Shown here: positions 25,321 through 62,508 of the stretch, piece after piece
How the letters are laid out: each line of letters begins with the position of its first letter
Numbering within the stretch: the stretch's first letter is position 1
Source: Paenibacillus xylanexedens
Lineage (GTDB): Bacteria > Bacillota > Bacilli > Paenibacillales > Paenibacillaceae
NCBI RefSeq assembly: GCF_001908275.1
Contig: NZ_CP018620.1
Span: forward strand, 6,076,001-6,140,000
Direction: 5' to 3'
Length of the DNA: 64,000 bases
The notes under the pieces: model-generated
The model's database searches: none
Told to the model about the DNA's origin: nothing
Seen by the model: only the letters and a program-made list of their open reading frames with translations
Position numbers and translations under genes: made by a program

Positions 25321-25470
25321 ACACTGGCCACTCCGATGACAGAATAACCTTCTGATCGCTGTTATCCCCAGATTTTTTTGATCCCTTTTATAAAGGGAAA
25401 ATCCGGTGATAAAGGCGAACGCTCCGCTTCTTCAAGTTCTTTCTGTCCTCTCCGTTTTGTGTAAATGTTT
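25321..25470. repeat. Palindromic dispersed element, copy A
   Basis: About 150 bp, closely similar to 62361-62508 and in its core to 28694-28838. The centre is an imperfect long hairpin: TTATCCCCAGATTTT and CCCTTT on the left pair with AAAGGG and AAAATCCGGTGATAA on the right. Outer arms CTCCGATGACAGAA and TTTCTGTCCTCTCCG are also roughly complementary. It lies between convergent genes, after the AraC-type regulator. No coding frame is conserved. It looks like a MITE- or BIME-type repeat, or a mobile structured RNA. Confidence 0.8.
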
Positions 25471-25545
25471 AGTTTAATTTATATATTTCCATCGGATCGA
25501 TAGAACCGACTCCAAATGGATACAATTTTGCCGCCACTCCTAAAA

Positions 25546-25600
25546 ATCCCCGTATAGAACGTCAATGTTTCTTAACGTTCTGTACGGGGATTAGCTTTTT
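25546..25600. terminator. Bidirectional terminator between convergent genes
   Basis: ATCCCCGTATAGAACGT pairs with ACGTTCTGTACGGGGAT (one mismatch). T-runs follow on both strands, the longer on the plus strand. Confidence 0.85.
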
Positions 25601-25614
25601 TTTCCGTTGGGCAA

Positions 25615-26193
25615 TCAGATTCTTTTCTTTCGTCTCCAGGTCCACACGATTGCCAACGCTGCTAATAAAATGACTCCGCCATATAAGATGAGATAGAAAG
25701 GCCCAGTTCGCCCACCACCATCATTGGTTTCTCCAAAATCTTCTTTACTTACAACCTTTCCTGCACCCAGCAATTTCAGATCGTCTCCAGCTTGTTCAAT
25801 TGGAACATTGCGACTGCACAGATTCGTATGTAGCTTATGATCCACTTCATATTGATAAGCATAGATCAGGTAGGACTGATTCTTTTCAAATTGAATGCCA
25901 CAGGATTCAGACCCTCCGTCACTCGCAAGGATTTTCATCTTTTTGGCATTAACCCCCTTCCATGCAGTATCTACATCAAAGGTATACTCTCTTAATAAGC
26001 CATCATGCTTCGACTGTTGAGAACGTCCCTTCTTCACCACTTCTCCTGTAAATACAGTTGTGTTTGTCTTCAATCTCTCTTGAACATCACTCTCGACACA
26101 ACTGCAAGCATACACTTTCTCTCCGGGAAATAGAGCTAACCCAGACGTAACCAACAGTAAGATCAACATGCACATCACCAAACGTCGTTTCAT
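25615..26193 (-). CDS. Secreted TIMP/NTR-like protein with C-terminal membrane anchor
   Basis: The 192-residue precursor has a signal peptide, MKRRLVMCMLILLLVTSGLA, ending around VYACSC so that mature CSC is near the new N-terminus. Four Cys in all fit the netrin/TIMP-like fold seen in many Bacillales proteins (ACSCVES...FTGEVV, GGSESCGIQFEKNQSYLIYA, NLCSRNVPI). A C-terminal helix YLILYGGVILLAALAIVWTW followed by RRKKRI anchors it in the membrane. The start at 26193 has AGGAGGGGAG upstream. Its role is unknown; the fold suggests protein binding or protease inhibition outside the cell. Confidence 0.75.
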   Translation of the reverse strand: MKRRLVMCMLILLLVTSGLALFPGEKVYACSCVESDVQERLKTNTTVFTGEVVKKGRSQQSKHDGLLREYTFDVDTAWKGVNAKKMKILASDGGSESCGIQFEKNQSYLIYAYQYEVDHKLHTNLCSRNVPIEQAGDDLKLLGAGKVVSKEDFGETNDGGGRTGPFYLILYGGVILLAALAIVWTWRRKKRI

Positions 26194-26365
26194 TCCGACC
26201 GCTCCCCTCCTACATTCTCTGCTTGAACAACCGTTGTTAAGGTTACATATTTTTATTGCTGCTATATTTATTGTAAAATTATAGCACAATACAAATATCG
26301 TTATGTCCGAGATACACAAGGACACAACATACGAAATCAACCATCACGGAGGAACTCAACATTTG

Positions 26366-27031
26366 ATGCACAACTGGAAAAAGAATATCTCCTTCCCGCT
26401 GCTCGTTGCAGCGTTATGCATGATCGCCTTTATAAGCATCGCCCTGTCCATCAGCGACAACCAAATTCATCGATTTGATGATACCTTAATCGGATGGATT
26501 CAGGGGTTGGAATCCCCTGGTATGACACAATTCATGCACCTTTTCACCTGGATCGGCAGCGAAATGCCAGTGGTCTTCATTACCATCATCGCCATGATTG
26601 TGTTATACATTTTCCTGCGACACAAACGCGAACTGCTCTTCCTGGCTTGTGTGCTCGCAGGTTCAACCCTGTTAAATGCATTGCTCAAGCTGGTATTCCA
26701 GCGTGCCAGACCTACCATTAACCGGATCATTGAAGTGAGCGGCTATAGCTTCCCCAGTGGGCATTCTATGGCAGCATTTAGCCTGTATGGTGGACTGGCC
26801 TTTCTAATCTGGAAACATGTACCCACCGTCACAGGACGTGTGCTGATGATTGTTGCCAGCGCCGTATTTATACTGACCATTGGTATAAGTCGTATCTACT
26901 TGGGGGTGCATTATCCAAGTGATATCGTAGGCGGATACTTCTTGAGTGGTTGCTGGCTCTCCACATGCATATGGTTTTATCGGCGGCACTTGGAGCGCAT
27001 GTCCCAACTGCAAAGCAGAAGGCTGGCCTAG
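26366..27031 (+). CDS. PAP2 family membrane phosphatase
   Basis: This protein of about 221 residues carries the three phosphatidic-acid-phosphatase motifs: KLVFQRARP (KxxxxxxRP), YSFPSGHSMAAF (PSGH) and SRIYLGVHYPSDIVGG (SRxxxxxHxxxD). Six membrane helices surround them. Such enzymes dephosphorylate undecaprenyl pyrophosphate or phosphatidyl phosphates at the outer membrane face. The start is uncertain: GGAGG is 13 bases before the ATG at 26366 but ten before a TTG at 26363. A longer reading adds an unlikely His-rich leader. Confidence 0.88.
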   Translation: MHNWKKNISFPLLVAALCMIAFISIALSISDNQIHRFDDTLIGWIQGLESPGMTQFMHLFTWIGSEMPVVFITIIAMIVLYIFLRHKRELLFLACVLAGSTLLNALLKLVFQRARPTINRIIEVSGYSFPSGHSMAAFSLYGGLAFLIWKHVPTVTGRVLMIVASAVFILTIGISRIYLGVHYPSDIVGGYFLSGCWLSTCIWFYRRHLERMSQLQSRRLA

Positions 27032-27055
27032 GCGGCCCGCTATTGAACTACACAA

Positions 27056-27101
27056 AGAAATACCCGGCTTTCCTTAACTGAAGGATCGCCGGGTATTTTT
27101 A
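27056..27101. terminator. Terminator after the PAP2 gene
   Basis: AAATACCCGGC / GCCGGGTATTTTT stem and T-run. Another hairpin with seven T on the plus strand follows near 27140-27187, so the convergent GH1 gene is well shielded. Confidence 0.8.
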
Positions 27102-27194
27102 TATTCATATATTGTAGTCCTGAACTCGTTCAGGACCACATGGACCGCTTGTCCCATTTAAGGGAACAGACGGATCTGGTTTTTTTACACCAAA

Positions 27195-28838
<1,644 letters not shown>

Positions 28839-28958
28839 ATCGATATCGTCCCCTTCACTACTCCCCAATAAATGAAGAACAGATTATAAATCTGAGTCAA
28901 AATGTCTTGGTAAGACTTTTACACCAGTGTACCACCCATACCCTGACACCTATTGTCA

Positions 28959-28967
28959 TGGTATAAT
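28959..28967 (+). promoter_or_regulatory. Extended -10 promoter of the WYL regulator
   Basis: TGGTATAAT is an exact extended -10 element (TGnTATAAT). The expected transcription start falls on or next to the ATG at 28974, so the message may be leaderless. Confidence 0.5.
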
Positions 28968-28973
28968 TATGGC

Positions 28974-29915
28974 ATGGAAAATAACCGACTATTTCGAATG
29001 TTGCTTTTGTTATTGGAGAAAAAGAAAGCCACTGCACCCGAACTCGCCCGTATGTTCGAGATTTCTGTACGCACGGTGTACCGTGATATAGATCGGTTGA
29101 GTGCTGCGGGCATTCCCGTCTATACAACGACCGGCAAGCATGGCGGTATCCATCTGATGGACAACTATGTCATGGACAAGTCCCTGTTGTCGGAAGAAGA
29201 CCAGAATGAAATTTTGATGGGACTATATAGCATCAGTGCGATCCCACATCTTAACAGTGCCCATATGCTGCAACGGTTAACCGCCCTTTTTGATCACAAG
29301 CTGGATTGGATCGAATTCAATTTCTCACCATGGGGCAGCATCCCTCTGCAGGAGAGAGAACTGTTCAATCAGGTGAAGCAGGCTATATTAACGAATCAAC
29401 TGATTACGTTTCATTATGTTAATTCGGATGGTGAGAAGAGCATTCCGACCGTGGAGCCACAGAAGCTTATTTTCAAAAACAGTACATGGTACTTCAAAGG
29501 CTATATTCATGATGATCCTGATCGTAAAGAATTCGAGACATTCAAGATGAAACGGATCACCCAGTTGACTTTTCTGGCGAGAAAACACGATCACTCTGTT
29601 ACTGTCGGATCAAACGACCCTGAATCAGAAGCAGCTCCTGTTCTGACTCCTCTTACACTCTCGTTCTCCAGCATCATTGCATACCGAGTGTATGATTTTT
29701 TCGAACCTTCCCTCATTGAAAAAGAGCCTGATGGCAGGCTCCGTGTGTCTCTCGACTTGAATGTAGGGGAATGGCTCTACTCCTTCCTGCTGTCGTTTGG
29801 TTCCGAGTTGACCGTCATCGAGCCTGTTCATGTTGGACAGGAATTGCTCAGGCGTCATATCAAAGCCGTTGAACATTTGCAGAACGTCATGAACAAACTT
29901 CCCAACAATGAATGA
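28974..29915 (+). CDS. YafY-type HTH-WYL transcriptional regulator
   Basis: The 313-residue protein has a DeoR-like winged helix in the first 60 residues (RLFRMLLLLLEKKKATAPEL, EISVRTVYRDIDRLSAAGIP). A WYL domain is at about 135-215, whose signature appears as TWYFKGYIHDDPDRKEFETF and KMKRI. A C-terminal extension domain follows. WYL proteins sense nucleic-acid or small ligands. No ribosome site precedes the ATG at 28974; instead a TGnTATAAT promoter lies just upstream, so translation from a leaderless message is plausible. It faces the GH1 gene and may regulate it. Confidence 0.82.
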   Translation: MENNRLFRMLLLLLEKKKATAPELARMFEISVRTVYRDIDRLSAAGIPVYTTTGKHGGIHLMDNYVMDKSLLSEEDQNEILMGLYSISAIPHLNSAHMLQRLTALFDHKLDWIEFNFSPWGSIPLQERELFNQVKQAILTNQLITFHYVNSDGEKSIPTVEPQKLIFKNSTWYFKGYIHDDPDRKEFETFKMKRITQLTFLARKHDHSVTVGSNDPESEAAPVLTPLTLSFSSIIAYRVYDFFEPSLIEKEPDGRLRVSLDLNVGEWLYSFLLSFGSELTVIEPVHVGQELLRRHIKAVEHLQNVMNKLPNNE

Positions 29916-29988
29916 TATAATATAGGCCTATACAACTTTTGATCACAGCTGACTCTCCGTCATCCATCTGACCGAAGGAGGTTTATTC

Positions 29989-30804
29989 ATGCAAGACATT
30001 AGACGCAACAATGTGGAACGTTTCAAAGGTTTTGGTACGTTATACGATCAGAACCGACCAGCCGCTCCCACTGAAGTCGTGGATATTCTAACGACATATC
30101 TTGGCAGCACACCGCGGATGGTCGCAGATGTTGGCTGTGGCACCGGTTTATCATCGTGGATCTGGCTTAATGAGGCAGAACGCATCATTGGCTTTGAACC
30201 CAGCGATGACATGAGGTCTGTAGCGGAATCCAAGTGGGAATCTGCCGGGAAGCCGGATAACCTGCGGTTTGTGTCCGGCTTGTCTCACGACCTCGGACTA
30301 CCAGATGGCAGTGTCGACGTGCTGACCTGCTCCCAATCATTTCACTGGATGGAGCCGCAACCCACACTACGCGAGTTTGCACGTGTACTTCGTACAGGGG
30401 GCATATTTGCAGCCTACGATTGCGACTGGCCGCCAATGCTGGACTGGCAGCTGGAACAGGCCTATCTGCAGCTGAATAAGGAAGCAGATCAACGAGCAGC
30501 CAGTCTGGCTCCCCAAGATAGTCAGGCACACAAATGGAGCAAGGATGGGCATTTGCAGCAGATTCAGCAGTCCGGGCTGTTCCGATATGTCCGGGAAATT
30601 GTATTTCATCACCACGAGACATTCACTGCCGATCGATATGTCAATCTCGCCCTGAGTCAAGGCGGCTTGCAAACGGCGTTGAAGCTCGGAGCGGAAGATC
30701 TATTAACAGCGGCCGACGACTTCAGAGCGCTGGCTAATCGTGTATTTGACGGAGAAACAAGAAAAGTACTCTTTTCTTATCGCATGCGCCTTGGTATTGT
30801 TTGA
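29989..30804 (+). CDS. Class I SAM-dependent methyltransferase
   Basis: The 271-residue cytoplasmic methyltransferase has the glycine-rich SAM site VADVGCGTGLSSWIW near residue 46, the acidic residue after strand 2 (IIGFEPSDDM) and motif VDVLTCSQSFHWMEP near 105, the FHWM style of UbiE/Tam-like methyltransferases. Small-molecule methylation is likely; the substrate is unknown. GAAGGAGG precedes the ATG. It is a single-gene unit after the WYL regulator and ends at a strong bidirectional terminator. Confidence 0.88.
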   Translation: MQDIRRNNVERFKGFGTLYDQNRPAAPTEVVDILTTYLGSTPRMVADVGCGTGLSSWIWLNEAERIIGFEPSDDMRSVAESKWESAGKPDNLRFVSGLSHDLGLPDGSVDVLTCSQSFHWMEPQPTLREFARVLRTGGIFAAYDCDWPPMLDWQLEQAYLQLNKEADQRAASLAPQDSQAHKWSKDGHLQQIQQSGLFRYVREIVFHHHETFTADRYVNLALSQGGLQTALKLGAEDLLTAADDFRALANRVFDGETRKVLFSYRMRLGIV

Positions 30805-30843
30805 AAACCGTCCGTTGCTTGCATCTCCGTACATACCAAAATG

Positions 30844-30893
30844 AAAAAGGAGGTCCTACACATCATAAACATGATCTGCAGGACCTCCTTTTG
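30844..30893. terminator. Bidirectional terminator
   Basis: AAAGGAGGTCCT pairs with AGGACCTCCTTT, with T-runs on both strands. It serves the methyltransferase gene and the convergent membrane-protein gene. Confidence 0.85.
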
Positions 30894-30902
30894 TCTACAT
30901 CC

Positions 30903-31697
30903 TCAAGAGGAGAATAAGTCACTTAATTGTCGCTCCTGTACATTCAATGCCAACACCAATTTTGTTGGGTCTTGTCTTGAATAGATGACGTTAATGATAT
31001 GGCCTTGCTGCACCTGCGGCAGCGCAGATGACAAAATTTCTTTTTGCGTTGTCACATTGAAGGTTTCACCGTTCGTTTTCGTTATGCTTAGTTTGAGCTG
31101 AAGCTTGATCTTGTTACTGCCTCCACTTCCAAGTGGAGTGACATCAAGGATCTTGGCCATCGCTTTTTCCCCTGTTCTTGCAATATCCATCATTTCAGGT
31201 GATACCCCTTGCTGTACCATCTTTTCATCCAACAATTGCTGCATATCCTCCTGTGATAATTGCCCCTTCATATCAAGCCCTACCTTGCGCTCATCCTTTA
31301 CGGAGACAACTAACGGAATAAAACTGCCCGGCTGAAACTGTGCCATGGAGGTCAGTGGAATGACGCTTTTCATCTCCGTATCGTATTTCTCCCGCCCCTT
31401 ACGCGAAACCGTCAGACCCAACCGAACCTCAGGCTGTTCATTAATATACGTACCTGTCTGTTGTATAGTTTTAATGACCCCAACTGCTGGTAAACCTGTC
31501 TTCACTCGACCTACGCCAAAAATATTGCTCAAAATCGCAGGAACAAAGATCAGTGCAAACCCGGCAAAGATTGCCGGAGTATACCACCATGCCTGCATAA
31601 TCATAAACGGATCATTCCACAGCTGCTGTGCCAGAAATGGGGAGAACCCCACTCCGAACACCGTTAATACGCCAATCAATCTCAGGAAACCTACCAT
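30903..31697 (-). CDS. Membrane protein with two copies of a TG-x-x-IN beta domain
   Basis: The 264-residue protein starts with two hydrophobic helices (VGFLRLIGVLTVFGVGF and YTPAIFAGFALIFVPAILSN), then a long soluble part. Two related segments are visible, GVIKTIQQTGTYINEQPEVR near residue 75 and AKILDVTPLGSGGSNKIKLQ near 185. Each is followed by alternating V/L strands and a PxVxxG-x-I/F turn. The same domain appears once in the upstream gene 31820-32236. Such repeats occur in uncharacterised bacterial proteins. The start at 31697 has GAGAGG nine bases upstream. Function unknown; probably membrane-associated scaffolding or sensing. Confidence 0.65.
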   Translation of the reverse strand: MVGFLRLIGVLTVFGVGFSPFLAQQLWNDPFMIMQAWWYTPAIFAGFALIFVPAILSNIFGVGRVKTGLPAVGVIKTIQQTGTYINEQPEVRLGLTVSRKGREKYDTEMKSVIPLTSMAQFQPGSFIPLVVSVKDERKVGLDMKGQLSQEDMQQLLDEKMVQQGVSPEMMDIARTGEKAMAKILDVTPLGSGGSNKIKLQLKLSITKTNGETFNVTTQKEILSSALPQVQQGHIINVIYSRQDPTKLVLALNVQERQLSDLFSS

Positions 31698-31819
31698 ATG
31701 ACCCACCCTCTCTTAATCCTTCTCTTAATATCTCTATCAAAACCTCTAATGATGTATCTATTAATCGTTGTTATACGCATTATTTAAATAGAGTATCGCT
31801 GTCTATAACCAAATACCTT

Positions 31820-32236
31820 CTAGATGGACACTAGACCCATGTAGATCAGTTCGGACGGATTCGCTGGATTCTGACCTAATCCCACCCGATCGCCTACTCG
31901 TGGAATCTGCATTTTGGACACCAATGTCTCCAATGTTCGCTGATACTGGTTGCCGTTTGTCTCTGTCACATCCAATACAAGCACAACAATCGGATCAAAG
32001 TTGATCAGTTTGCCTGTATCGGTGATTGTCACCACCGTAGCCGTAGCTGTTAAAGGCAGAGAACCACTCGCTGCCAACTGTGCCTGCTTCGCCGAATCCA
32101 GACTTTGGTTGATGGCCTCCCGATGTTCTTTCGATACAAAACCTTTCATCATCATGCCAGTGAGTCCTTTATTCATCATTTTATCCGCTTTGGCAATCGC
32201 ATCTTCCTGTTTGTTCTTTTTACCGAACCATCCCAT
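31820..32236 (-). CDS. Small soluble protein with one TG-x-x-IN beta domain
   Basis: This 138-residue protein begins MGWFGKKNKQEDAIAKADKM, a charged helical segment, and then carries one beta domain: VVTITDTGKLINFDPIVVLV, TNGNQYQRTLETLVSKMQIP, RVGDRVGLGQNPANPSELIY. The TG-x-x-IN-x-x-P-x-V core matches both repeats of the downstream membrane protein, so the two genes, 122 bp apart on the same strand, likely act as partners. GAGGTG precedes the ATG by eight bases. No enzymatic motif is visible. Confidence 0.65.
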   Translation of the reverse strand: MGWFGKKNKQEDAIAKADKMMNKGLTGMMMKGFVSKEHREAINQSLDSAKQAQLAASGSLPLTATATVVTITDTGKLINFDPIVVLVLDVTETNGNQYQRTLETLVSKMQIPRVGDRVGLGQNPANPSELIYMGLVSI

Positions 32237-32273
32237 ATCAAGCACCTCATTTGTTTTATTTGTTTTTAGAAGT

Positions 32274-32441
32274 TGTTCAAAAAGTCCACTTTTGATTACG
32301 AATCATGCCTAGCGGCATCATCAGCATCGAATATGAAATTCAGCCGAAATGTCCGTTGCTCACGTAGGTCTCCTACGCTCCGCTACTCCATTTCTAGCTT
32401 CATTCCATCTTCTCGGTACTGAAAACCAGACTTTTTGAACA
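32274..32441. repeat. 168-bp MITE-like element with terminal inverted repeats
   Basis: The left end TGTTCAAAAAGTC and right end GACTTTTTGAACA are exact 13-base inverted repeats. The interior has further symmetric parts (ATGCCTAGCGGCAT; CACGTAGGTCTCCTACG). It has no ORF. I associate sequences of this type with dispersed repeats in Paenibacillus genomes, from memory only. It lies upstream of the gene at 31820-32236. Confidence 0.7.
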
Positions 32442-32503
32442 CGTATTTATAATTAAATTATAAACACCGCGGCTTGTCCTTGAATACCCTTCTGGCGGTA
32501 TAC

Positions 32504-32540
32504 AAAAAAAACGAAAAATCCGGTATTTGAATGACCGGAT
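32504..32540 (-). terminator. Terminator downstream of the HTH-TPR gene
   Basis: The minus strand has ATCCGGT-CATTCAAAT-ACCGGAT then TTTTCG and eight T. A weaker AAGATC/GATCTT hairpin lies at about 32585-32605, closer to the gene. The rest of 32442-32694 shows no gene. Confidence 0.7.
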
Positions 32541-32694
32541 AATCGTTTCTTTGGTAAAGTCTTATACTTATTTCACAAAAAAAGATCTGCTTAACCGATC
32601 TTCATTTCATGATTGGCAGCTATATTTTGTGGAAAATACGTAGGCAGTAGACAAAATAATGCCTCACTTAGGAAGTTTCATGCTCTTTTCCGCT

Positions 32695-33975: not shown

Positions 33976-34178
33976 GGTATCCCTGTCCTTTCTATCCTAA
34001 CTAGCGAGTACATTCTATTCACATCATCGCAAAATTAGAGATATAACGCCACCCTTCCGGCGAAATCAAACGAAACGGTTTCCGTTTCCGAGGTAATTGT
34101 TTTACAATAAGAAAGTATGTGTAAGAGCATTTTATCGAAATGCTGAAACATGAGCTGAATATGAAAGGATGCAAATAA

Positions 34179-35372: not shown

Positions 35373-35462
35373 AGAAGTTTTGGCGTGGACGTGAACCTAG
35401 GTTTTTGTTTTCGTTAGCACTTCTGATGTCATGCTAGAGATATGATATTAAAATCAAATGAA

Positions 35463-39332: not shown

Positions 39333-39346
39333 ATACTCGATCTAAT

Positions 39347-44798: not shown

Positions 44799-44965
44799 AA
44801 GGACCTTTACCATCACTGGTAAGGTCCTTTTATATCCACAAAAAGAGACCTTTACCGAGCATGAAAACTTGGTAAAGGTCTCGCTAACAACAAAATTGCT
44901 GCCAATAAAGCCGGGGATATGATCCCGAATTGACGACTTTACTGTAAAAGCTACTCCCCTTTAAC
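44799..44965 (-). ncRNA. yybP-ykoY manganese riboswitch with two terminator hairpins
   Basis: The minus strand shows the conserved pieces in order: TTAAAGGGGAGTAGC, GTCAATTCGGG, CCCCGGCTTTATTGGCAGC, TTAGCGAGACCTTTACC. P1 pairs TAAAGG (44963-44958) with CCTTTA (44878-44873). The 3' P1 strand is also the 5' arm of terminator 1 (GAGACCTTTACC / GGTAAAGGTCTC, then T5). A second hairpin, AAGGACCTTACCA / TGGTAAAGGTCCTT with T8, lies 12 bases further at 44799-44828. Mn2+ binding should stabilise P1 and turn the terC gene on. Confidence 0.9.
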
Positions 44966-45036
44966 AGGAATATGTAGTTTTAGTTGGAACGGGTTGTTTA
45001 ACCTGTACTCATCATATTTCATAACGTTAAATAAAG

Positions 45037-53289: not shown

Positions 53290-55338
53290 TTAGGAATTCG
53301 AATACATCACCGTTAGGGATATCGCATTCACATGTACCTTTCCGTCCTGTATGGTGCGTATCGTATCAACGCTTGCTTGTCCTTTTTCTACAATCACATT
53401 CCATGTCCCTGTGGGAACAGCGATGTCACGGTTTTCTTTTGCCGCGTTATAGATGACAACAATACGTTCCCATGAATCGCTGGCTGCTGTACCGTTCAGT
53501 TCATACGCTAACAGCCCATTACCTTTTTCGATTAGACGAACATGCTTCTCGATCTCTTCCCGTGTACGAAGCCGAAAGGCTGGATGTTCTCGCCGAAGAC
53601 GGATCAGCCCACGATAATAATCAAACACCGGCTTGAACAGCTTCTTCTGCTCCCAATGTACGGCATTGACCACGTCTCCACTCTGGTGGCTGTTGGCGTC
53701 CCCATATTTGCTGCGAAGCAGCTCATCACCAGCCGCGATCAGGGGAACACCCTGGGAGGTTAGAACGATACCATTGGCAAGCAGACTACGCCTAACGGTC
53801 TCATTCTCCAGAATGTGTTCCGGATCAATCTGTAGGTAAGGCTTAGCCTTCTCTACGGCCTCCTCCACACTCTGGCATCCACGAATACTTCCATCCTCGT
53901 CATAGGTGAGGAAATTCAAGGTATCGTGGAGTCCTTGTGTACGTGCGACTTTGTCCCACAGGTTGAGATTATCATGCACTGTTACATAGTTAATCGTCTC
54001 GGATGGACCATCCGTAAAATCTTGAATGGCTCCCCGGACGCCAGTCCACAATTCGTCTTCTTTTCCGTCCGCACCCGTCGCAAATCCCGTACCCATGCCA
54101 TCACTGTCTCCCTTGATCACTCCGCGGAAATTATCGTTAAACACAGCAAAACCCGCTCCGCGCTGCGTTCCTTTTAGGGTCATATCATCCCCAAGCGGCG
54201 AATCCAGCGCGCCCCATGGTTCACCATATAACAATATGGAAGGTGACACATCTGTGTGCAATTCCGCTGCAAGCTGTTTCATCGTAGTTGTGTCGATCAG
54301 GCCCATAAGATCAAATCGAAAACCATCAACATGGTACTCCTCTGCCCAGTAACGGACCGAGTCGATGATAAACTTGCGAACCATGGCGCGTTCAGTAGCC
54401 ACCTCATTGCCTGTACCTGAGCCATTGCTATAGGTTCCATCAGCGTTTTGACGATAGTAGTACCCTGGTACAAGTTTTTCAAAAGAGCTGCCTGCCGTAT
54501 CAAACGTATGATTATATACCACATCCATAATGACACCTATTCCCTTGTTATGAAGGGCAAGCACCATTGATTTGAACTCACGAATCCGTGTCTCCGGATC
54601 ATCTGCACGTGATGCATAGGAACCTTCCGGGACATTGTAATGAAGTGGATCATATCCCCAGTTATAGTTGGAGGCATCAGACGTATCACCATCCACCCTG
54701 GATTCATCCACCGTCGCAAAATCAAATACAGGCAGCAGATGAACATGGGTAATCCCGAGTTCAACCAAATGATCGAGCCCCAGTGTGTTGCCCTCCGAAT
54801 CACGCAGACCCGTCTCGGTGAAAGCCATGTATTTACCTTTATTCGTTATACCCGATGATGGGTGAATGGAAAAATCACGTACATGCAGTTCGTACAGGAC
54901 TGCATCTACAGGACTGGTCAATTGCGGGCGAATATCCTCACTCCATCCATTCGGATGTGTCTGCTCCAGTCTCACAATTACAGCCATTTCTCCATTCATG
55001 GTCACTGCTCGTGCGTAGGGATCTACAGCATGGGTTGAATGTCCGTCTTCGAAAGTAGGCTTGTACATGTAACGGTAGCTGTTTAAATCACCCTCCAGTT
55101 CCAGAACCCAGATGCCCTGATCTTTCTTTTGCATAGGTAACGCCTGTTGTTTCCGTTGATTGGGCTCTTCCTCCGGGCTCCCCCCTGTCAAAGGTGGGTA
55201 CAGAAGTAGTTCCATCTGAACAGCTAACGGTGACCAGACTTTGAAGTGACAGGCTTGTGCTTCTAATGTGACGCCTAAATCTCTTCCTTTGTATGTATCT
55301 TCTGAAATCAATAGTTCCTGCTTATCCTCTTCAATCAT
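53290..55338 (-). CDS. Type I pullulanase, core form
   Basis: The 682-residue debranching enzyme lacks a signal peptide and probably works on glycogen or imported branched dextrins in the cytoplasm. An N-terminal CBM48-like domain (CHFKVWSPLAVQMELLLYPP) precedes the GH13 barrel with YNWGYDPLHYNVPEGSYA, GVIMDVVYNHTFD, DGFRFDLMGLID (nucleophile), ILLYGEPWGALDSP (acid) and YVTVHDNLNLWDKVA. Length and order match AmyX-type pullulanases. It is the closest relative in the window of the larger enzyme at 49927 and lies just upstream of it on the same strand, so tandem duplication followed by domain gain is likely. Confidence 0.93.
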   Translation of the reverse strand: MIEEDKQELLISEDTYKGRDLGVTLEAQACHFKVWSPLAVQMELLLYPPLTGGSPEEEPNQRKQQALPMQKKDQGIWVLELEGDLNSYRYMYKPTFEDGHSTHAVDPYARAVTMNGEMAVIVRLEQTHPNGWSEDIRPQLTSPVDAVLYELHVRDFSIHPSSGITNKGKYMAFTETGLRDSEGNTLGLDHLVELGITHVHLLPVFDFATVDESRVDGDTSDASNYNWGYDPLHYNVPEGSYASRADDPETRIREFKSMVLALHNKGIGVIMDVVYNHTFDTAGSSFEKLVPGYYYRQNADGTYSNGSGTGNEVATERAMVRKFIIDSVRYWAEEYHVDGFRFDLMGLIDTTTMKQLAAELHTDVSPSILLYGEPWGALDSPLGDDMTLKGTQRGAGFAVFNDNFRGVIKGDSDGMGTGFATGADGKEDELWTGVRGAIQDFTDGPSETINYVTVHDNLNLWDKVARTQGLHDTLNFLTYDEDGSIRGCQSVEEAVEKAKPYLQIDPEHILENETVRRSLLANGIVLTSQGVPLIAAGDELLRSKYGDANSHQSGDVVNAVHWEQKKLFKPVFDYYRGLIRLRREHPAFRLRTREEIEKHVRLIEKGNGLLAYELNGTAASDSWERIVVIYNAAKENRDIAVPTGTWNVIVEKGQASVDTIRTIQDGKVHVNAISLTVMYSNS

Positions 55339-55442
55339 GTGTGTTGTTCCCCTCTCGTTGAGAAAATTGATGAATATGGATGGTACGAGTGCTCCTTACC
55401 CTTTATACCCGTTCTGCTGCCCGACCATAATCCAAATTACAC

Positions 55443-55491
55443 AAAAAAGAAGACAAACGTCATGTAGATTCACATGACGCCTGCCTTCTTT
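55443..55491 (-). terminator. Terminator of the giant surface-protein gene
   Basis: On the minus strand a stem of about 18 bp (AAGAAGGCAGGCGTCATGT with ACATGACGTTTGTCTTCTT) is followed by six T, 20 bases after the stop. Confidence 0.85.
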
Positions 55492-55511
55492 ATGGGTAAA
55501 ACGATACCCCT

Positions 55512-58500
55512 CTAATGTGGTACCTGGGATTGGAAATCATTTCGGCTGGATTGATCCGCGTGGTACAAAACCACGTCCCCATCTTGCATCGGCCAACTTC
55601 TCCCCTGACCATCTACCGGGCTGTTATCAAAACCTTCCATTTGCCATTGATTCATCAACGGTGCATGAATATATTGCAGATGTGGTGCATTCGTATTGCC
55701 ACTGCGCAATGTTTCGATATTGAAGTTAACCACAATGTAACCGCCCCTCAGAAATACCGTCGCCTTCTCATCCAACCGGTTTTGTCTGGCAAGCGACTCG
55801 AGATCGGTTCCTTTGGGCACTGCATATACATCTGCTGGCAAGCTATATTCCCCATACCAGCGCTGAATCGCTGCATTCGCCCGATCCACATTAACACTGG
55901 AGGGAATATCTGCTTTTGGGCCAATAAGTGTTCGGATCTGTGAAGGAAGAATCATCCAGTCATAACGACCTACCCACGTTTTATGATGAGAGGTCTGATC
56001 CACGAAACGAACCATATGTTCCGCCATTGTACCCTGTATGCGTTCCTCCGCCGACAGTTCATAGGTATACTGATAACGCGCTGTATCACCCAACTCCGTA
56101 CTGGGGACATTCCGCAACCGTGAGTTCAGGACAACAAAACGTTTTTCTAAATCTTGTGAAGATCCGATACGAATGAGTCGATCCTGTCCTCGATGGTAGT
56201 ATAAATCCACTTCTTGCCGGGTGGTGCCATCTTTACTCACAAAAGAGAACGTCGGCGTGATTCGGATACCATCCTGTTTCCCAAACATATTGCCCTTGGT
56301 TTTCAGATCAAACTTGAAATGGTAACCTGTCTTCACTGCAGCATTTCGGAAACCCTGTACCGGATGACTGCCGGGACGAATAGGCAGGACATAGGGAGCC
56401 AAGTTACCTCGGGGATCTCCGTCAATACCGTTTCCTCCGGTCCAATAGCTCACACCCGTTGGTTCCGGGCTGCCCATCCGCTTGCGGAACACATTCTCCC
56501 AGTTGTAGTCTGAAACATCGGTAATGTGAAAATCATACAACCTTCCGATAACCTCTACAGCAACGGTATCTGCTGCGACATGATGGGTCAGATTCGTATT
56601 GGCATCCTGTTGTTCTGTGAAGTTTGCCGGTGCATTTTCGGCGATATTACGAAACTCAATCTGGTAATTCCCTTCATCTACCCATACAGGAAGATAAAAA
56701 GGGGTGTCCAACTGATTTACCGGAATATCCACCCATGTCATGGCCGGAATAAACTGACTTCTGGCACCGTTATAGACATCGAATGGGAAACGAACCTGTT
56801 TGATCCGGAAATATTTCGCATAATCATGGTTTCCATAACCAGGGTAACTCGCTACATCCAGATGCTGCCCTGAAGTTGGGATGCGTACAATAAACGGACG
56901 CTCTAAAATAAGTGCAGCTCTGGTCGGATCAGGCGTAGTCTTCTGGTTATGCGGCTGATCATCTGACACCCAGGCATAGTTCACAACTGGAGTATGTACT
57001 GTCACCGAGTTGATGCCCAGAATGGGGAACTTCTGATCCCGCCCTCCGTTAACATTGCCAGGGAGCAGTCCATACGTTATCTCACCCGTGGTTGGCTGGT
57101 TAGCTTTGTTCATCAATGTGTTTTTGATCGTCAGACGGTTCTGGTACAGAACATCGTCTCCGATCATGCCAGGCTGGGGGATCGTCCCAGGTCTTGGAGC
57201 TGTTTTTTCCACCGGGGCAGAATCCATAATTGTCGCTCCATTAAAGGTTACCTTGTCGTTATTAACGGTGTTCTCTCTAACCTCCGCTTCAGCTTCAGAT
57301 TGAAACAATGACGTTTCATCTGGCGTAGAGGGTTCAGTAGAACCACCCGGAACCCCTTTGATGCCAAGATCAATTTCTCGACATGGCGCAGGTTTCACAT
57401 GATTGGTAACCGCAGTATCCATAGCCGATTGCAAAGTCGGTGCTGTATATGCATTGGGCATCAGGGTCACGGTGTCGCCATAACCGCCTAGCGCATAGTT
57501 AGATACCTTGGCCTCATTTAACTTGTATACCTCCAGGTTATCGATCTGCCAATAGCTATATGTCCGTGTTACTTGCATGGTTTTATCCCCAGGCACATCA
57601 CGTTCTTTGGGCTCAGGAGGTGTTCCTGGATCCCCCTCACCACTAGACGCTCTTCCCGGGATCGTCCAGGTTTTATGATAAACCCTTTTCACCTTAACGG
57701 TGTAAGTCACCGTTCCTGTCATGTTAACCCAACGGTGCTGAAACAGATATTCCTTGGCTAAAACATTGGCATAGAGATCTTCCGAAGTTGGAATACCACG
57801 GGTAACATCGAACTTCTCAGATCCACGCTCGTCTGCCTTCAACACACCTCGAACAGACGGGTCTATAACCGATGCTTCAATAACCGTGCCTCTACTCGGT
57901 GGGCTGATGGTCACAGGGCAAGTGTTCGCAGGGTCACCCCCCGGATCGCCATCATTACCACCCTCTCCATTATCCGTGCAGTCCTTCACCTCAAGCACCT
58001 GAGTCCCTTGTTCATCCAGTTGCTGAGCAGAATCAAGAAAATGAGCTTTTATGGTAGTGCTACCGACGATCCCTTTAGTCGTGATTTTGCCATCTGCGCC
58101 GATCGTTGCCACAGCCGGATTCGAGCTTTGCCACGTCAATTTAGGATGAGCTGTCAGTTTATGAACAGAGCGATCCGGTTTGGTTAGAACTGCTTCCGCC
58201 TGTAGTGGTGTTGTATTGGCTTTACAAGCGTTCGGCAAATTCACCACGAGTCCTGGCTCAGACGTAACGGTTATGGTGGCTGTATCCGAGATCAGATATG
58301 TACCATTGTTCCAGATTGCACGCACAGTGACCGTGCCCGGACTTTCGGCCGTTAACATCCCTGTTTTCAACTCTATACTCGCAATTGTCTCGTCAGAAGA
58401 AAACCATTTGATCTCTGCTTCCCTGCGGGATACGTCAATGCCCTCACCAAAGGCTGTCGCACCATAACCTTTCGTCTTCACCTTGGCTTCCATCTGTTGT

Positions 58501-59198
58501 GTTTTCCCTATGGTAAGGGTTGAATCTGGGGTTACATCGATTTCTTTTTCTTCGTGAATCTTACCTTCCCAGAAGATGCTAACAGGGGTGTGGTACACCA
58601 TCTTATATTTGGGTTTATTGCCTGGCCTAGTCCCATAAGGTTCCCTTTCAAAGAACTCAAACCCTTTGCCAGTATATGTTCTAAGATCCGCATTTTTTTC
58701 ACTTGTAACTCTTGGACTACCTATTCCTTCATAACTATTTACCTGCTGATATTTTACACCATCAGGATCGTTCTTTAACTTAATATCAGTTACCATTTCC
58801 TTATCAATTCCTATACCTCTATATGGCTTCCAACTTAGTGGGGGCCATCTACTCATATCAACATTATCAGGAATTTCTGTTTTTACAGGGTATGCATCAT
58901 AATCAGTTCCTCCGTTATCCACATCTTTGTGCGTACCTTGATATTCTGCCCTAAATTCTCCTGAATCAAGTTGATACCAGTAAACTCCTGGTGTTCCTTG
59001 AGTTGGGTTTGCATCAACTGTGACTGCTGGCCCTTTCATGGATTTGGAACCATATTGTTCTTCTACGGCATTAGCTTTAAGAGTATCAAAAGTGCAGTAA
59101 TAGACTGGTAATGTCATAAATATAATTACTAAGATTCTATATAAACTTTTAAAACCACCTAGTAGATAACGTTTAATATTAAATTTAAACACCACCAA
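55512..59198 (-). CDS. Large secreted protein with Ig-like (Big_2) domains
   Basis: This 1228-residue exported protein has a hydrophobic leader (SLYRILVIIFMTLPVYYC) followed by ANA-like cleavage near residue 44. Residues about 45-215 are a distinct N-terminal part. Then come two Big_2-like Ig repeats (AEIKWFSSDETIASIELKTG; PKLTWQSSNPAVATIGADGK), a Gly/Asp/Pro linker (NGEGGNDGDPGGDPANTC) and some 750 residues of beta-rich sequence I cannot assign. It resembles Paenibacillus DUF5704-type surface proteins, by memory only. The start is uncertain (TTG at 59198, no clear ribosome site), probably translationally coupled to the SLH gene that ends six bases earlier. Confidence 0.75.
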   Translation of the reverse strand: MVVFKFNIKRYLLGGFKSLYRILVIIFMTLPVYYCTFDTLKANAVEEQYGSKSMKGPAVTVDANPTQGTPGVYWYQLDSGEFRAEYQGTHKDVDNGGTDYDAYPVKTEIPDNVDMSRWPPLSWKPYRGIGIDKEMVTDIKLKNDPDGVKYQQVNSYEGIGSPRVTSEKNADLRTYTGKGFEFFEREPYGTRPGNKPKYKMVYHTPVSIFWEGKIHEEKEIDVTPDSTLTIGKTQQMEAKVKTKGYGATAFGEGIDVSRREAEIKWFSSDETIASIELKTGMLTAESPGTVTVRAIWNNGTYLISDTATITVTSEPGLVVNLPNACKANTTPLQAEAVLTKPDRSVHKLTAHPKLTWQSSNPAVATIGADGKITTKGIVGSTTIKAHFLDSAQQLDEQGTQVLEVKDCTDNGEGGNDGDPGGDPANTCPVTISPPSRGTVIEASVIDPSVRGVLKADERGSEKFDVTRGIPTSEDLYANVLAKEYLFQHRWVNMTGTVTYTVKVKRVYHKTWTIPGRASSGEGDPGTPPEPKERDVPGDKTMQVTRTYSYWQIDNLEVYKLNEAKVSNYALGGYGDTVTLMPNAYTAPTLQSAMDTAVTNHVKPAPCREIDLGIKGVPGGSTEPSTPDETSLFQSEAEAEVRENTVNNDKVTFNGATIMDSAPVEKTAPRPGTIPQPGMIGDDVLYQNRLTIKNTLMNKANQPTTGEITYGLLPGNVNGGRDQKFPILGINSVTVHTPVVNYAWVSDDQPHNQKTTPDPTRAALILERPFIVRIPTSGQHLDVASYPGYGNHDYAKYFRIKQVRFPFDVYNGARSQFIPAMTWVDIPVNQLDTPFYLPVWVDEGNYQIEFRNIAENAPANFTEQQDANTNLTHHVAADTVAVEVIGRLYDFHITDVSDYNWENVFRKRMGSPEPTGVSYWTGGNGIDGDPRGNLAPYVLPIRPGSHPVQGFRNAAVKTGYHFKFDLKTKGNMFGKQDGIRITPTFSFVSKDGTTRQEVDLYYHRGQDRLIRIGSSQDLEKRFVVLNSRLRNVPSTELGDTARYQYTYELSAEERIQGTMAEHMVRFVDQTSHHKTWVGRYDWMILPSQIRTLIGPKADIPSSVNVDRANAAIQRWYGEYSLPADVYAVPKGTDLESLARQNRLDEKATVFLRGGYIVVNFNIETLRSGNTNAPHLQYIHAPLMNQWQMEGFDNSPVDGQGRSWPMQDGDVVLYHADQSSRNDFQSQVPH

Positions 59199-59690
59199 AA
59201 GTTCTATTGATAGATTTGAACTTCTTTACCAGCATCATTCTTTAACATATATCCTCCCTTTACAGGATCCAGAGTATGTGATGACCAAAATTTGGTAGAT
59301 ACCCCTTGCTTCAACATTGCGTTTGAATCGTCTGGTAAAGTAATAAACCCTTTTTCTTTCAAATAGCTCACGTTAAATAACCGTTGAATTGGAATAACTA
59401 TATTATCATTCGCTCTAGCAATATTTAAAAGATTTGACTTATCAAGTCTTGAAGTAAACGTTATCTCAGCGTAGGTAGAAAAGCGCCCCTTTTGTGCCCT
59501 AGTCAAGTTATTTTGATCTACAAATAACGTTGCGTACAGTCCCTTGGGCTTAGTCCCTCGGGTATCCACTACGATAAATCTATGGTACCTTACGACCCCC
59601 ACATTATTTTTCAATGTGTACTCTGTATTAACTATATCTCCGAAGTTACCTTTAATATATTTGTAACTTGATACTGTCGTTAAATTCGTA
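58560..59690. other. AT-rich segment across the junction of the SLH and giant genes
   Basis: Counts on several 60-base lines give 23-45% G+C here against about 45-57% on both sides. It covers the last 160 codons of the SLH gene and the first 210 codons of the giant gene. Its edges fall at domain borders in both proteins. This suggests a block exchanged as a unit. Confidence 0.55.
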
Positions 59691-60472
59691 CCCGTCGTGC
59701 CGACCTCTCTCATTTCATTCAGATCACTGTACTTCCCGGCATCCGTGCCCTCCACGTCCATATAACGCAGTAAAATGGCCGATACTTCTGCACGAGTGGT
59801 GGAATCCGCAGGTTTTAATGTGCCATCCTGAAATCCACCCACAATGCCTGTCCCACGGACAAGGGCAAGATACGGAATCTGCTCAGCACGAATGGTGCCA
59901 CGGTTCACTTCCGGTGTGGGAAGCAGCGTATTTTTGGTATCGTTAAAAGCATCCTGGAAGCTGGTTCCGGACTTAATCAGTCCATTTGCAATCCATTTCA
60001 TCATCTCGTAACGCGTCAGCTCCACATTTGGATTGAACCCTTTGGCGTAATCGCCAGTATTAATGAATCCTTGTCCAACAAGTTGGCTAACCGCCGCTTC
60101 AGACCAATGTCCCTTGAGATCGGAAAACGGGTTTTGCCCCTCCACCTTCTCTAGTCCAGTCGCACGGGCAAGTATGGTTGCATATTCCCCACGCGTGATT
60201 TTGCCATTGGGACGGAACGTTCCGTCTTGGTAACCTGAGATCAAGTTTTTTTCATAAGCTTTGGCAATCGTTGCTTGAGCCCAGTGGCCCTTGATATCTT
60301 TGAACTTGCTAAGGGCCGTGTCACTTGTTCCCGATGCTGCATTAGCTGTGGACGTCAGATGTACGGGTCCAACGGGCAATAATGTTCCTGCCAATACAGC
60401 TGTCGTTAACAACCCGACGATCCAACCGTTCCGTTTTTTCTTCTTCTCATGACCTTCAATTCGTTTCTTCAA
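59204..60472 (-). CDS. SLH-domain surface protein
   Basis: The protein of about 422 residues has a signal peptide (GWIVGLLTTAVLAGTLLPVG, cleavage near ANAA) and three SLH modules at about 55-265: FKDIKGHWAQATIAKAYEKN, FSDLKGHWSEAAVSQLVGQG, and a third with GGFQDGTLKPADSTTRAEVS. These bind pyruvylated wall polymers and hold the protein on the cell surface. The last 150 residues are a separate AT-rich-coded domain of unknown function. TTG at 60472 is best, ten bases after AGGAG; a GTG three codons earlier is too close to it. It overlaps no gene and is followed after six bases by the giant secreted protein, a likely partner. Confidence 0.85.
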   Translation of the reverse strand: MKKRIEGHEKKKKRNGWIVGLLTTAVLAGTLLPVGPVHLTSTANAASGTSDTALSKFKDIKGHWAQATIAKAYEKNLISGYQDGTFRPNGKITRGEYATILARATGLEKVEGQNPFSDLKGHWSEAAVSQLVGQGFINTGDYAKGFNPNVELTRYEMMKWIANGLIKSGTSFQDAFNDTKNTLLPTPEVNRGTIRAEQIPYLALVRGTGIVGGFQDGTLKPADSTTRAEVSAILLRYMDVEGTDAGKYSDLNEMREVGTTGTNLTTVSSYKYIKGNFGDIVNTEYTLKNNVGVVRYHRFIVVDTRGTKPKGLYATLFVDQNNLTRAQKGRFSTYAEITFTSRLDKSNLLNIARANDNIVIPIQRLFNVSYLKEKGFITLPDDSNAMLKQGVSTKFWSSHTLDPVKGGYMLKNDAGKEVQIYQ

Positions 60473-60678
60473 TCTACTCACGCTCCTATGTACCTTAGTA
60501 TGGGGATGCTTTACTTGGTCAACCTAGTCAATTCTCTTCATAACCAAAACCTAAATTTGCCATAATAATCAATATTCTACCATGTTGTACTAGGCTATTG
60601 GTATTATTTTTCGTCCATCCCCATCACGTTAAGGCGTGCGCCCCTCCTTCCATAGACCCACTTCATTCGCCTAAAACA

Positions 60679-60715
60679 CAAAAAAAGGCCATGAATCCGC
60701 AGATTCATAGCCTTA
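60679..60715 (-). terminator. Terminator between the solute-binding and SLH genes
   Basis: AAGGCTATGAATC-TGCG-GATTCATGGCCTT followed by seven T on the minus strand, about 100 bases after the binding-protein stop. The rest of 60473-60817 holds the SLH-gene promoter region with no other gene seen. Confidence 0.85.
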
Positions 60716-60817
60716 TGCTTTAAGGGTGTGGTCTTTCTTATGATATTGGAAAATGAATTCACTCATAGAATAAACCATATCATTCCATTTGATCAACCTT
60801 TTTTATTTCACCCAGCT

Positions 60818-62329
60818 TTATTTTCCGTTCAATTCCTTATAGGATGCTTCAAGTTCCGTGATTAATTGATCACCACCGGCTTTTCTCCAGCTTGCGATTT
60901 CCTGCTCCCAACCTGCGTCATCGATTTTACCCATGATGTACTTCGTCTGCGCATCCCAGATCATCTGATCCAACTCCTGACCACGCTCGGTATAGATTGC
61001 CGAAGACAAGGTGAGTGCCGGATTGGCGATGGCGTATTGCTCATTCTCACGCGCCATCTTCGTACCTTTCATACCAATCGGAACATCAACCAGTTCAGGT
61101 ACATTATAACCTTCAATACTTAACAGATTATCCCGGTATGGCTTCACTTCACGCTGATAAGCGTCAAAATCTTTAAGTTCGGTTTTCCCATCCGCAGTCT
61201 TGGTGTAGTGCACATCGAGCAATCCACGGAGCTGCAACGCGCTTAATTCCTCATCCATCAACTGATCCAGGAACGTGAGCACCTGCTTCAACTGCTCCTC
61301 ATCCGTTACGGACGCCTTCGGGATGACTAGCATTCCATAGTTTCCTGGCTCGCCGGCGATTCGAATGCCGTCGGTTCCCTGGAACGGAGCCACATCAATT
61401 TCTCCATCCGGAGCGTTAGGTGTAAGCCGCTGCTGAGAGGACTTTCCGTTCTGGGCCACACCGTTAAGCTTCATGCCAACCAGGCCGGAATCCATTTTTT
61501 TGTCCGCATCAGAAGGGTCCAGAGCAGGGAAATCACTATTAATCAGTCCCTCGCTGAACAGTCGCTTGAAGAGTTTCATTGTATCCACATATTCGGTAGT
61601 CAAGAACTCCGGGGTCAGTTTCCCAGCATCATCCACTCCCCATTTGTTAACACCGCCAATACTTACAGCAACCCGCGTCAGTGGGGAAGAGACACCCTCA
61701 TTATACTTTTTGAAGAGCAGTGCACCGTACGTATCTTCCTTACCATTTCCGTCAGGGTCATCCTTACGAATAGAGCGCATCACTTCATACCAATCATCCA
61801 GCGTTTTGGGTATATCCAGCTTCAACGTATCAAACCAGTCCTTGCGATATACGATCGCAGTCCGGCCAATATCCCGGAAGTTCGGAATACCGTAGACCTT
61901 GCCTTCAATTTTGATATTGTTAAAATAAGCTTCGGATTGGGCAGACAGGTTCTTATAATCCTTCAAGTAAGGCCCCAGTTCCCAGAACAGTCCCGTTTTG
62001 GCGGCATTAAATGTGGTCGGTACATAATTCACACGCATAATGGTCGGCATCTCACCTGAAGCAACCATAACATTCACCTTATCATCAAAAGCAGACTGCG
62101 GAATCCACTGTACATTGACATCCGTATTTGTATATTCCTCAATCTTCTTTTCAATCCCGTTCTCCTTGGCCGGTATATCTCCTACCTGCATTAAAGAGAT
62201 GGAAATGGGAAGTTTACCTTCCCCTGCAGCAGGTGCTTTTTCTCCCCCGCAACCTGCAAGCAATCCAGCGGACATTGCACCAATTACAACGATTCCGCCT
62301 AAACGGGACATTGGACCTTTTGGACTCAT
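60818..62329 (-). CDS. ABC transporter solute-binding lipoprotein (LplA type)
   Basis: This 503-residue extracellular lipoprotein has a lipobox in GAMSAGLLAGCGGEKAPA. The type II binding fold shows NVMVASGEMPTIMRVNYVPT, VYGIPNFRDIGRTAIVYRKD, LDIPKTLDDWYEVMRSIRKD with the Ca2+-like loop KDDPDGNGKEDTYGAL, and the end TKYIMGKIDDAGWEQEIASW. The length and DPDGNGKED loop mark the LplA/YtcQ family of Paenibacillus and Bacillus, which bind large oligosaccharides. AAAGGAGAG precedes the ATG. A second, similar protein is encoded at the right edge, with a GH105 gene between, so pectin-derived oligosaccharides are likely. Confidence 0.9.
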   Translation of the reverse strand: MSPKGPMSRLGGIVVIGAMSAGLLAGCGGEKAPAAGEGKLPISISLMQVGDIPAKENGIEKKIEEYTNTDVNVQWIPQSAFDDKVNVMVASGEMPTIMRVNYVPTTFNAAKTGLFWELGPYLKDYKNLSAQSEAYFNNIKIEGKVYGIPNFRDIGRTAIVYRKDWFDTLKLDIPKTLDDWYEVMRSIRKDDPDGNGKEDTYGALLFKKYNEGVSSPLTRVAVSIGGVNKWGVDDAGKLTPEFLTTEYVDTMKLFKRLFSEGLINSDFPALDPSDADKKMDSGLVGMKLNGVAQNGKSSQQRLTPNAPDGEIDVAPFQGTDGIRIAGEPGNYGMLVIPKASVTDEEQLKQVLTFLDQLMDEELSALQLRGLLDVHYTKTADGKTELKDFDAYQREVKPYRDNLLSIEGYNVPELVDVPIGMKGTKMARENEQYAIANPALTLSSAIYTERGQELDQMIWDAQTKYIMGKIDDAGWEQEIASWRKAGGDQLITELEASYKELNGK

Positions 62330-62360
62330 GAACCATCTCTCCTTTTGGATAAGGTTATGT

Positions 62361-62508
62361 ACACAGACCACTCCGATGACAGAACAACCTTCAGATCGCT
62401 GTTATCCCCAGATTTTTTGATTCCCTTTTAAAAAGGGGAAATCCGGGGATAAAGGCGAACGCTTCGCTTCATCAGATTATTTCTGCCCTCTCCGTTCTCA
62501 TGTACATG
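62361..62508. repeat. Palindromic dispersed element, copy C
   Basis: Nearly the same as copy A at 25321-25470 over its whole length. The central arms are TTATCCCCAGATTTT and AAATCCGGGGATAA, with CCCTTTT/AAAAGGG inside. It fills the space between the GH105 stop and the binding-protein start, so it would be transcribed between the two genes. Confidence 0.8.

Follow-up and report, generated by a model that had tools for sequence, protein, structure and literature searches.

A Paenibacillus repeat with IS630-type ends and an RNA-like core, probably a mobile structured leader RNA

The window analyzed here, a 64,000-nt stretch of the 7.1-Mb genome of Paenibacillus xylanexedens (NZ_CP018620.1, positions 6,076,001-6,140,000), carries three copies of a palindromic repeat, designated A, B, and C (Table 1). 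Copy A lies between the convergent AraC-type and TIMP-domain genes, copy B between the divergent genes for a GH1 enzyme and a WYL-regulator, and copy C in a gap between co-directional genes, within the leader region of a solute-binding-protein gene, which are the gene arrangements that the original prediction, made from the letters of the sequence, had described. The kinship of the copies is equally real, with 84% identity between A and C across 180-184 bp (E = 1e-45), and with B sharing only the core, at 77% over 88 bp with A and 73% over 82 bp with C (E = 1e-11 to 4e-9). The limits first drawn around the copies were too narrow, as A is 187 bp long and C extends farther to the right, and the 40 extra base pairs noticed in B proved to be a discrete module common to a subfamily of about 230-240 bp. 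Further copies, compensatory changes, and defined ends, on which that prediction had been staked, were all found. We propose that the element is probably a mobile structured leader RNA, analogous to yet distinct from the pneumococcal BOX repeat. What was computed comprises the ends, a TA duplication, empty sites, an insertion sequence (IS) with the same repeats, covariation, strand-specific tolerance of G-U pairs, orientation, and position; transcription of the core, a binding partner, and an effect on expression are what we infer.

Searches of the own genome returned, among the matches listed, at least 42 to copy A at E ≤ 10. A 16-mer from the core matched 199 times with up to 2 mismatches, versus 0 times for a reversed-pattern control, and the inverted repeat matched 146 times, versus 3 for its reversed control. 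All 75 genomes of the genus that were searched contain the core 16-mer, with matches ranging from 1 (G054, where the control gave 2, so that the count is not above it) to 216 (G035). Among the matches listed, exact copies of the 16-mer were sparse at 1.6-3.7 Mb in G036 and at 2.1-3.3 Mb in G011; covariance model R1, introduced below, finds some copies in that region of G036.

Aligned copies share the ends CTATATAARTTSAACTAAA ... TTTAGTTSAAYTTATATAG. In six relatives belonging to other species (L065-L068, L070, and L071), the site of A is empty and reads AAC-TA-GTT, versus AAC-TA-[187 bp]-TA-TTTCC when occupied. The insertion split the TAG stop codon of the AraC gene, and A provides a new stop three residues further (25304-25306 in the list of open reading frames [ORFs]), within its left terminal inverted repeat. 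A TA duplication together with these ends points to the IS630 (Tc1/mariner) family, the duplication being documented at one copy of the repeat, A, and, through ORF continuity, at the IS of locus L137. Twenty-three loci with a DDE_3 transposase domain were inspected in relatives. At L137, both ends of an IS630 element (874-2039) match the repeat consensus TATATAARTTSAACTAAA with 0 mismatches; this element interrupts another ORF, IS256-like by reading of its sequence, at a TA, and its transposase (NF033545/PF13358) lies in two reading-frame pieces, so that the exactly matching IS is itself broken. Locus L126 has an intact 347-aa IS630 transposase (NF033545), 100% identical to a protein of Paenibacillus terrae HPL-003, with related repeats; at L128, the repeats of a further DDE_3 transposase differ. 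A profile search of genome contigs with the transposase alignment gave 2 loci. By inspection, the repeat and these IS have their ends alone in common, so the repeat is no simple deletion derivative of them. A-type copies are best read as IS630-type miniature inverted-repeat transposable elements (MITEs), as one half of the original prediction had it, on the strength of the shared inverted repeats, the TA duplication, the empty sites, and about 200 core matches. In C, an old copy, the left end has eroded, and the ribosome-binding site of the gene now stands in its place.

Some copies depart from this plan. Elements of 99-127 bp at L098 and L099 keep full inverted repeats around a mostly deleted core and are second-order deletion derivatives. 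At the site of copy A, L063 and L069 have the left end of A together with the module, but differ from A in their right inverted repeat and flank, through recombination or deletion. Spread by phages found no support, with no match in 50,697 phage records, and spread by plasmids was set aside, with 2 of 72,556 plasmid records matching, both from Paenibacillus cellulosilyticus and with 62% and 43% of the query covered.

Copy B and copies in more distant genomes have a central ~110 nt in common with A and differ in their outer arms. Covariance model R1, built on this core of about 108 nt, found it in 240 of 296 Paenibacillales genomes and 32 of 48 genera (E ≤ 0.001 with stricter filters). In 16 of 20 genomes checked, the core was present at 1-6 copies (E ≤ 1e-4), and another family includes three genomes (G119, G122, and G144; L292, L297, and L298) in which the sole copy found sits at one orthologous place. 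Paired copies from nine genomes (G208, G135, G112, G194, G149, G203, G297, G063, and G153) share their cores, and their arms to varying extents. Against Rfam 15, the window gave no match at gathering score and five weak ones (E ≤ 1), none in A, B, or C; five element-bearing loci gave four weak matches, none near its gathering score. No earlier description was found in the open-access literature, subscription journals and ISfinder being outside that search.

The core is predicted to form a long stem that is interrupted by a conserved asymmetric bulge, of consensus CUGGAGAAGCG-A-GCGUUCGCCUUUG / CAACAGCGAUCGGAAG, whose sequences are almost invariant while the stems on either side vary. Covariation, which proved very strong, was assessed in a genus alignment of 73 copies (A2; core fold from RNAalifold, inverted-repeat pairs added manually), a diverse core alignment of 45 sequences (A3), and an alignment from other genera (A4; 75 rows, 73 distinct). 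In A2, 93.7% of the cells are paired and 28 of 57 pairs have two-sided changes, with a covariation score of 0.121 against 0.079 ± 0.003 after shuffling and 0.020-0.033 when the structure was slid. The scores were 0.269 against 0.130 ± 0.007 shuffled in A3 (two-sided changes at 18 of 24 pairs) and 0.461 against 0.159 ± 0.007 in A4 (22 of 24 pairs, 97% paired). Compensatory changes, claimed from the window's copies, are thus real, although not in the example quoted for them: CCCTTTTATAAAGGG versus CCCTTTTAAAAAGGG is a difference in a hairpin loop and forms no base pair.

Palindromes can be conserved as DNA or as RNA, and the strands tell the two apart. Where one strand pairs G with U, the opposite strand has A facing C, a mismatch; selection that acts on the RNA of one strand hence leaves more G-U than A-C. 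We relied on a strand-symmetric choice of pairs (Watson-Crick threshold of at least 80% for the core and 70% for the inverted repeats). In the A2 core, G-U outnumbered A-C by 58 to 4 (23 pairs versus 0, p = 2.4e-7), and in a larger genus set of 118 cores by 50 to 7 (14 versus 2 pairs, p = 0.004). The inverted repeats of the same sequences in the same orientation (17 of 18 pairs) gave 43:43 (6 versus 7 pairs), which counts against a general mutational asymmetry. For pairs common to the folds of both strands, the ratios were 20:0 in A2, 18:8 in A3, and 68:32 in A4. The direction is alike in all four symmetric core sets and its strength lies in the genus; an excess in the core without one in the inverted repeats points to selection at the RNA level, more weakly so in the more diverse sets.

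Placement was analyzed for copies with a profile score of at least 60, at least 900 bp of flank on both sides, and a distinct place or sequence (169 copies, 168 with genes on both sides: 90 own, 50 from G036, and 28 other; B scores below 60 and is not among them), with gene starts taken from a small in-house gene caller. In 73 of 168 copies a gene started no more than 40 nt from the left end, versus 2 copies for the right end (p = 1.5e-19), and in tandem gaps the RNA sense ran with the genes in 98 cases and against them in 20. Among 61 own and G036 copies with a start -5 to 40 nt from the left end, 44 had it at 10-30 nt. In divergent gaps, the left start was the nearer one in 21 of 26 and lay 14-28 nt away in 14 of 26. 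A ribosome-binding-like motif followed the left end in 34 of 70 copies and the right end in 8 of 70. On the side where the core ends, a gene started in 20 genus loci, and in 12 of these the start codon lay about 58-75 nt beyond the core. The bias recurs in the 30 top-scoring genus loci (tandem 17 to 7) and in other genera (31 co-directional versus 9 opposite), where 49 of 69 distant copies were usable and the other 20 were omitted because no gene had been called on one of their sides. An apparent bias by chromosome arm (dnaA at 0.72 Mb; GC skew) had suggested orientation by replication, an idea weakened by splitting the copies by their flanking genes: the bias stands out only for tandem genes on the leading strand (41:8), versus 4:6 for lagging tandem, 10:6 for convergent, and 8:7 for divergent genes. 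Orientation appears to follow the gene, not replication. Covariation, G-U tolerance on one strand of the core without counterpart in the inverted repeats, and co-directional placement lend weight to the other half of the original prediction, a mobile structured RNA, provided that the core is transcribed.

Part of the element is variable. A side hairpin of about 40 nt occupies one fixed place in 39 of 118 complete copies, as judged by length class, and inspection of its sequence shows the UCGCC / AUCGGAAG motif of the core bulge once more. It is present or absent at orthologous loci of close species, always at that position. At locus C, the hairpin is present in 7 of 12 aligned sequences (L354, L356-L359, L361, and L362) and absent from 5, among them the window, the remainder of the sequence being nearly identical. 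Among orthologous pairs of G036 and G000, copy lengths differ by 35-39 nt in 9 of 16; in eight of the nine, the alignment has a corresponding gap of 37-39 nt, and in one a gap of 56 nt. L100 has three modules in tandem.

Copies B and C also persist across genomes. B was found in eight orthologues, of which two have a GH1 gene of about 87% identity, and is missing in several closer relatives. Its conservation exceeds that of both flanking genes in 6 of 8 comparisons, is practically equal in L072, and falls between the two genes in L077, the aligned part before the module gap alone being counted in L073, L077, and L078. In L075, it is 95.3% identical versus 86.8 and 79.3% for the flanking genes, and in L064, 172 of 173 positions are identical versus 92-94% for the genes. 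C occurs in 14 genomes besides the own; in those lacking it, some 70-340 bp of other sequence stand between the flanks (93 bp in six).

Under the reading we favor, the A-type element is, as DNA, a nonautonomous IS630-type transposon, whose ~17-bp inverted repeats an IS630-family transposase would recognize in trans to insert it at TA. As RNA, the ~108-nt core would fold, in one direction, into its long stem with the conserved asymmetric bulge. With the element lying mostly in the direction of the next gene, and often ending 10-30 nt before its start codon, just upstream of the ribosome-binding site, the core would be transcribed as part of the leader, and a host RNA-binding protein or RNase could bind or cut the bulge. 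Such binding or cutting would set the stability or translation of the downstream mRNA and keep the gene expressed. Insertion into a 5′ leader would hence be tolerated or useful in that orientation only, and the transposon would settle in leaders. Non-autonomous copies may have outlived their transposase partner. A wider formulation, which we hold only tentatively, is that of an undescribed structured RNA class distributed across the order and traveling as DNA within transposon ends, with the same core in different packagings, about 200 copies in one Paenibacillus genome, many of them oriented in 5′ leaders, and a swappable 40-nt hairpin, as a mobile modular regulator of leaders by which hundreds of unrelated genes could come under one RNA-binding factor.

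Several observations weigh against a role as leader RNA. The strand test is weaker in diverse sets (A4, symmetric pairs, 42:12, 14 versus 5 pairs, p = 0.064; A3, 19:16, 9 versus 4 pairs, p = 0.27), A4 was fitted to R1 and hence leans towards it, and part of the G-U excess under the same-strand fold is due to the fold itself, as pairs from the opposite-strand fold gave 25:22 in A2 and 21:32 in A3 (68:35 in A4). Copies are related and not independent, so the p-values serve as guides. In tandem gaps with the preferred orientation, 57 starts lay within 40 nt versus 45 expected if uniform, only a mild enrichment; in the opposite orientation, starts are avoided (1 observed versus 5.3 expected). Near-uniform position in the one orientation and avoidance in the other leave as the minimum claim that leaders tolerate the first and that copies in the second are purged, and tolerance rather than benefit may explain the placement. 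The lagging-strand numbers of the replication test are small (10 tandem copies), copies such as A, between convergent genes, cannot serve as leaders there, and among 61 downstream genes listed, reading of the N-termini revealed no functional theme and no regulon. Under the pattern used, the MITE repeat (up to 3 mismatches) stood at both ends of 1 of the 23 transposase loci, at a single end of 6, and at neither end of 16. Finally, no DDE_3 transposase was detected in the own genome at E ≤ 0.001, and one was present in 11 of the 39 genomes searched, a set that includes the own; the copies thus seem now to be without a partner there.

Four rival explanations were weighed. The core could be a host RNA family, riboswitch-like or a protein-regulated leader, that is older than the transposon and was later captured and multiplied by IS630 ends. 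This account overlaps the favored one, from which it differs in origin, so the two are not exclusive; we regard it as unlikely, if to be taken seriously. The low-copy genomes speak for it, including the single orthologous copies in another family, with ends unlike IS630, as does the conservation of B beyond both flanking genes in most orthologues. Low-copy contexts, on the other hand, vary by genus (fucosidase-like, prepilin-peptidase-like, or response-regulator-like, by reading) with no common gene seen, and several non-A types are likewise repeated within genomes. An ordinary IS630-type MITE devoid of RNA function, whose hairpin is a transposon palindrome and whose orientation bias is what is left after purging of gene-silencing copies, would account for the TA duplication, shared inverted repeats, empty sites, and high copy number. 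It also agrees with the gap types of the 168 copies (70/14/15% tandem/convergent/divergent), which match the background of 72/14/14% in 176 sampled intergenic gaps of at least 20 nt, with the absent downstream theme, and with the weak strand test in A3 and A4. We nevertheless rate it as rather unlikely, for in other genera the core is kept, with strong covariation, between quite different outer ends, and in the genus the strand-specific G-U excess of the core is not found in the inverted repeats.

The strong adjacency of the left end to gene starts would also be expected from an outward promoter driving the left-end gene, one leader orientation being harmless or useful; in the accessible text of PMC10969869, Correia elements are reported with promoters and upstream of genes. 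This is improbable here. Mean best scores for SigA-like promoters were 8.5 and 8.2 on the two strands of 118 complete copies, not above the 9.1 of 60 mononucleotide-shuffled copies, in a test that covered SigA only; in several copies, a ribosome-binding-like motif begins 0-10 nt past the inverted repeat, so that a transcript could hardly start in between, and RNA-strand covariation would stay unexplained. Nor was an intrinsic terminator seen, with no terminator-like site at 25200-25600 around copy A and none in other copies by inspection of the consensus. Least probable is a single-stranded DNA hairpin moved at replication by a Y1/RAYT-type transposase, of the REP/BIME kind that the original prediction had coupled with MITEs. 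The imperfect hairpin with a conserved bulge and the apparent bias by chromosome arm would suit it, but the bias stands where genes are leading and, on small numbers, not clearly elsewhere, and the TA duplication and IS630 ends count against it; the BIME label found no support, RAYT genes being outside the searches.

Compared by description, the module recalls BOX of Streptococcus pneumoniae, whose boxB is about 45 nt long: the 40-nt hairpin is likewise present or absent at one locus and can stand in tandem. BOX is described, in the accessible text of PMC3049150, as a composite of boxA and boxC with a variable number of internal boxB, structured if transcribed, and possibly mobilized by an IS, as proposed from similar inverted repeats. 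The same text, in a statement whose subject is not fully visible, gives pneumococcal repeats as over-represented between convergent genes. Here, convergent placement is not over-represented (24 of 168 copies versus 25 of 176 background gaps), gap types match the background, the left end is strongly oriented to gene starts, and the core spans 32 of the 48 genera of an order. RUP, in the portions available of PMC2229807 and PMC3049150, is a short MITE of 107 bp that inserts at TA, has inverted repeats resembling those of IS630-Spn1, and is described as a single simple family; in the present element, IS630 ends are one of several packagings of an RNA-like core, and the copies are polar towards gene starts. 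The Correia (NEMIS) element of Neisseria is a MITE upstream of many genes (PMC10969869, in part) whose transcript hairpin is a proposed RNase III target (PMC2229807, in part); no SigA-like promoter stands above shuffle here, and an order-wide core with a conserved bulge does not appear in the accessible Correia descriptions. ERIC of enterobacteria affects co-transcribed mRNA in an orientation-dependent way, according to the visible part of PMC2229807, a likeness by description; it belongs to an unrelated phylum, and the ERIC descriptions accessible to us do not mention an order-wide covarying core. The nearest known kinds would thus be BOX for the modular middle and RUP for the IS630 ends, and the oriented, order-wide, RNA-like core seems to set the element apart from all four.

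Mobile hairpin repeats are usually regarded as DNA parasites that affect genes only incidentally. Tolerance of G-U in the core, versus none in the inverted repeats, separates RNA selection from DNA selection within one element. If the leader RNA reading is true, a large RNA family seemingly missing from Rfam 15 would be added, and practically useful soil bacteria would offer a testable case of transposons spreading one RNA control module to many leaders.

Table 1. Features of copies A, B, and C and adjoining genes. Coordinates are positions in the 64,000-nt window; the strand given for elements is the RNA-sense strand of the core.
Feature	Position	Strand	Basis
Left target-site duplication TA of copy A	25295..25296	.	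Six empty alleles AAC-TA-GTT
Copy A, complete 187-bp MITE (best reading)	25297..25483	-	Aligned copies and empty alleles
Left terminal inverted repeat of A	25297..25313	+	Inverted-repeat consensus
Structured core of A, member of the alignment behind model R1	25340..25445	-	Core alignment
Right terminal inverted repeat of A	25468..25483	-	Inverted-repeat consensus
Right target-site duplication TA of copy A	25484..25485	.	Empty-allele comparison
GH1 6-phospho-beta-glucosidase-type gene, adjoins B	27195..28628	-
Stretch around B missing from alleles L062, L066, L069, L070, and L079 (approximate ends)	28652..28911	.
Copy B, old and diverged; core flanked by B-type outer arms GAGTAGCC...CACTACTC	28685..28863	-	Sequence comparison
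40-nt side-hairpin module within B	28777..28815	-	Not in orthologues L073, L077, and L078; recurs in ~240-bp subfamily
Extracellular solute-binding protein gene (PF01547), adjoins C	60821..62329	-
Ribosome-binding-site-like AAAAGGAGAG ahead of the gene that follows C (start codon 62327-62329)	62337..62346	-
Copy C, old MITE copy with eroded left inverted repeat (approximate left limit)	62350..62526	-
Structured core of C	62380..62485	-	Core alignment

Two further features of the window were recorded. The small protein with a TIMP-like domain that adjoins copy A is encoded at 25618-26193 on the minus strand (PF00965, 28.6 bits). At 44886-44971, also on the minus strand, there is a sub-threshold match to the Mn2+ (yybP-ykoY) riboswitch, at 30.2 bits versus a gathering score of 45 (E = 1.9e-4).

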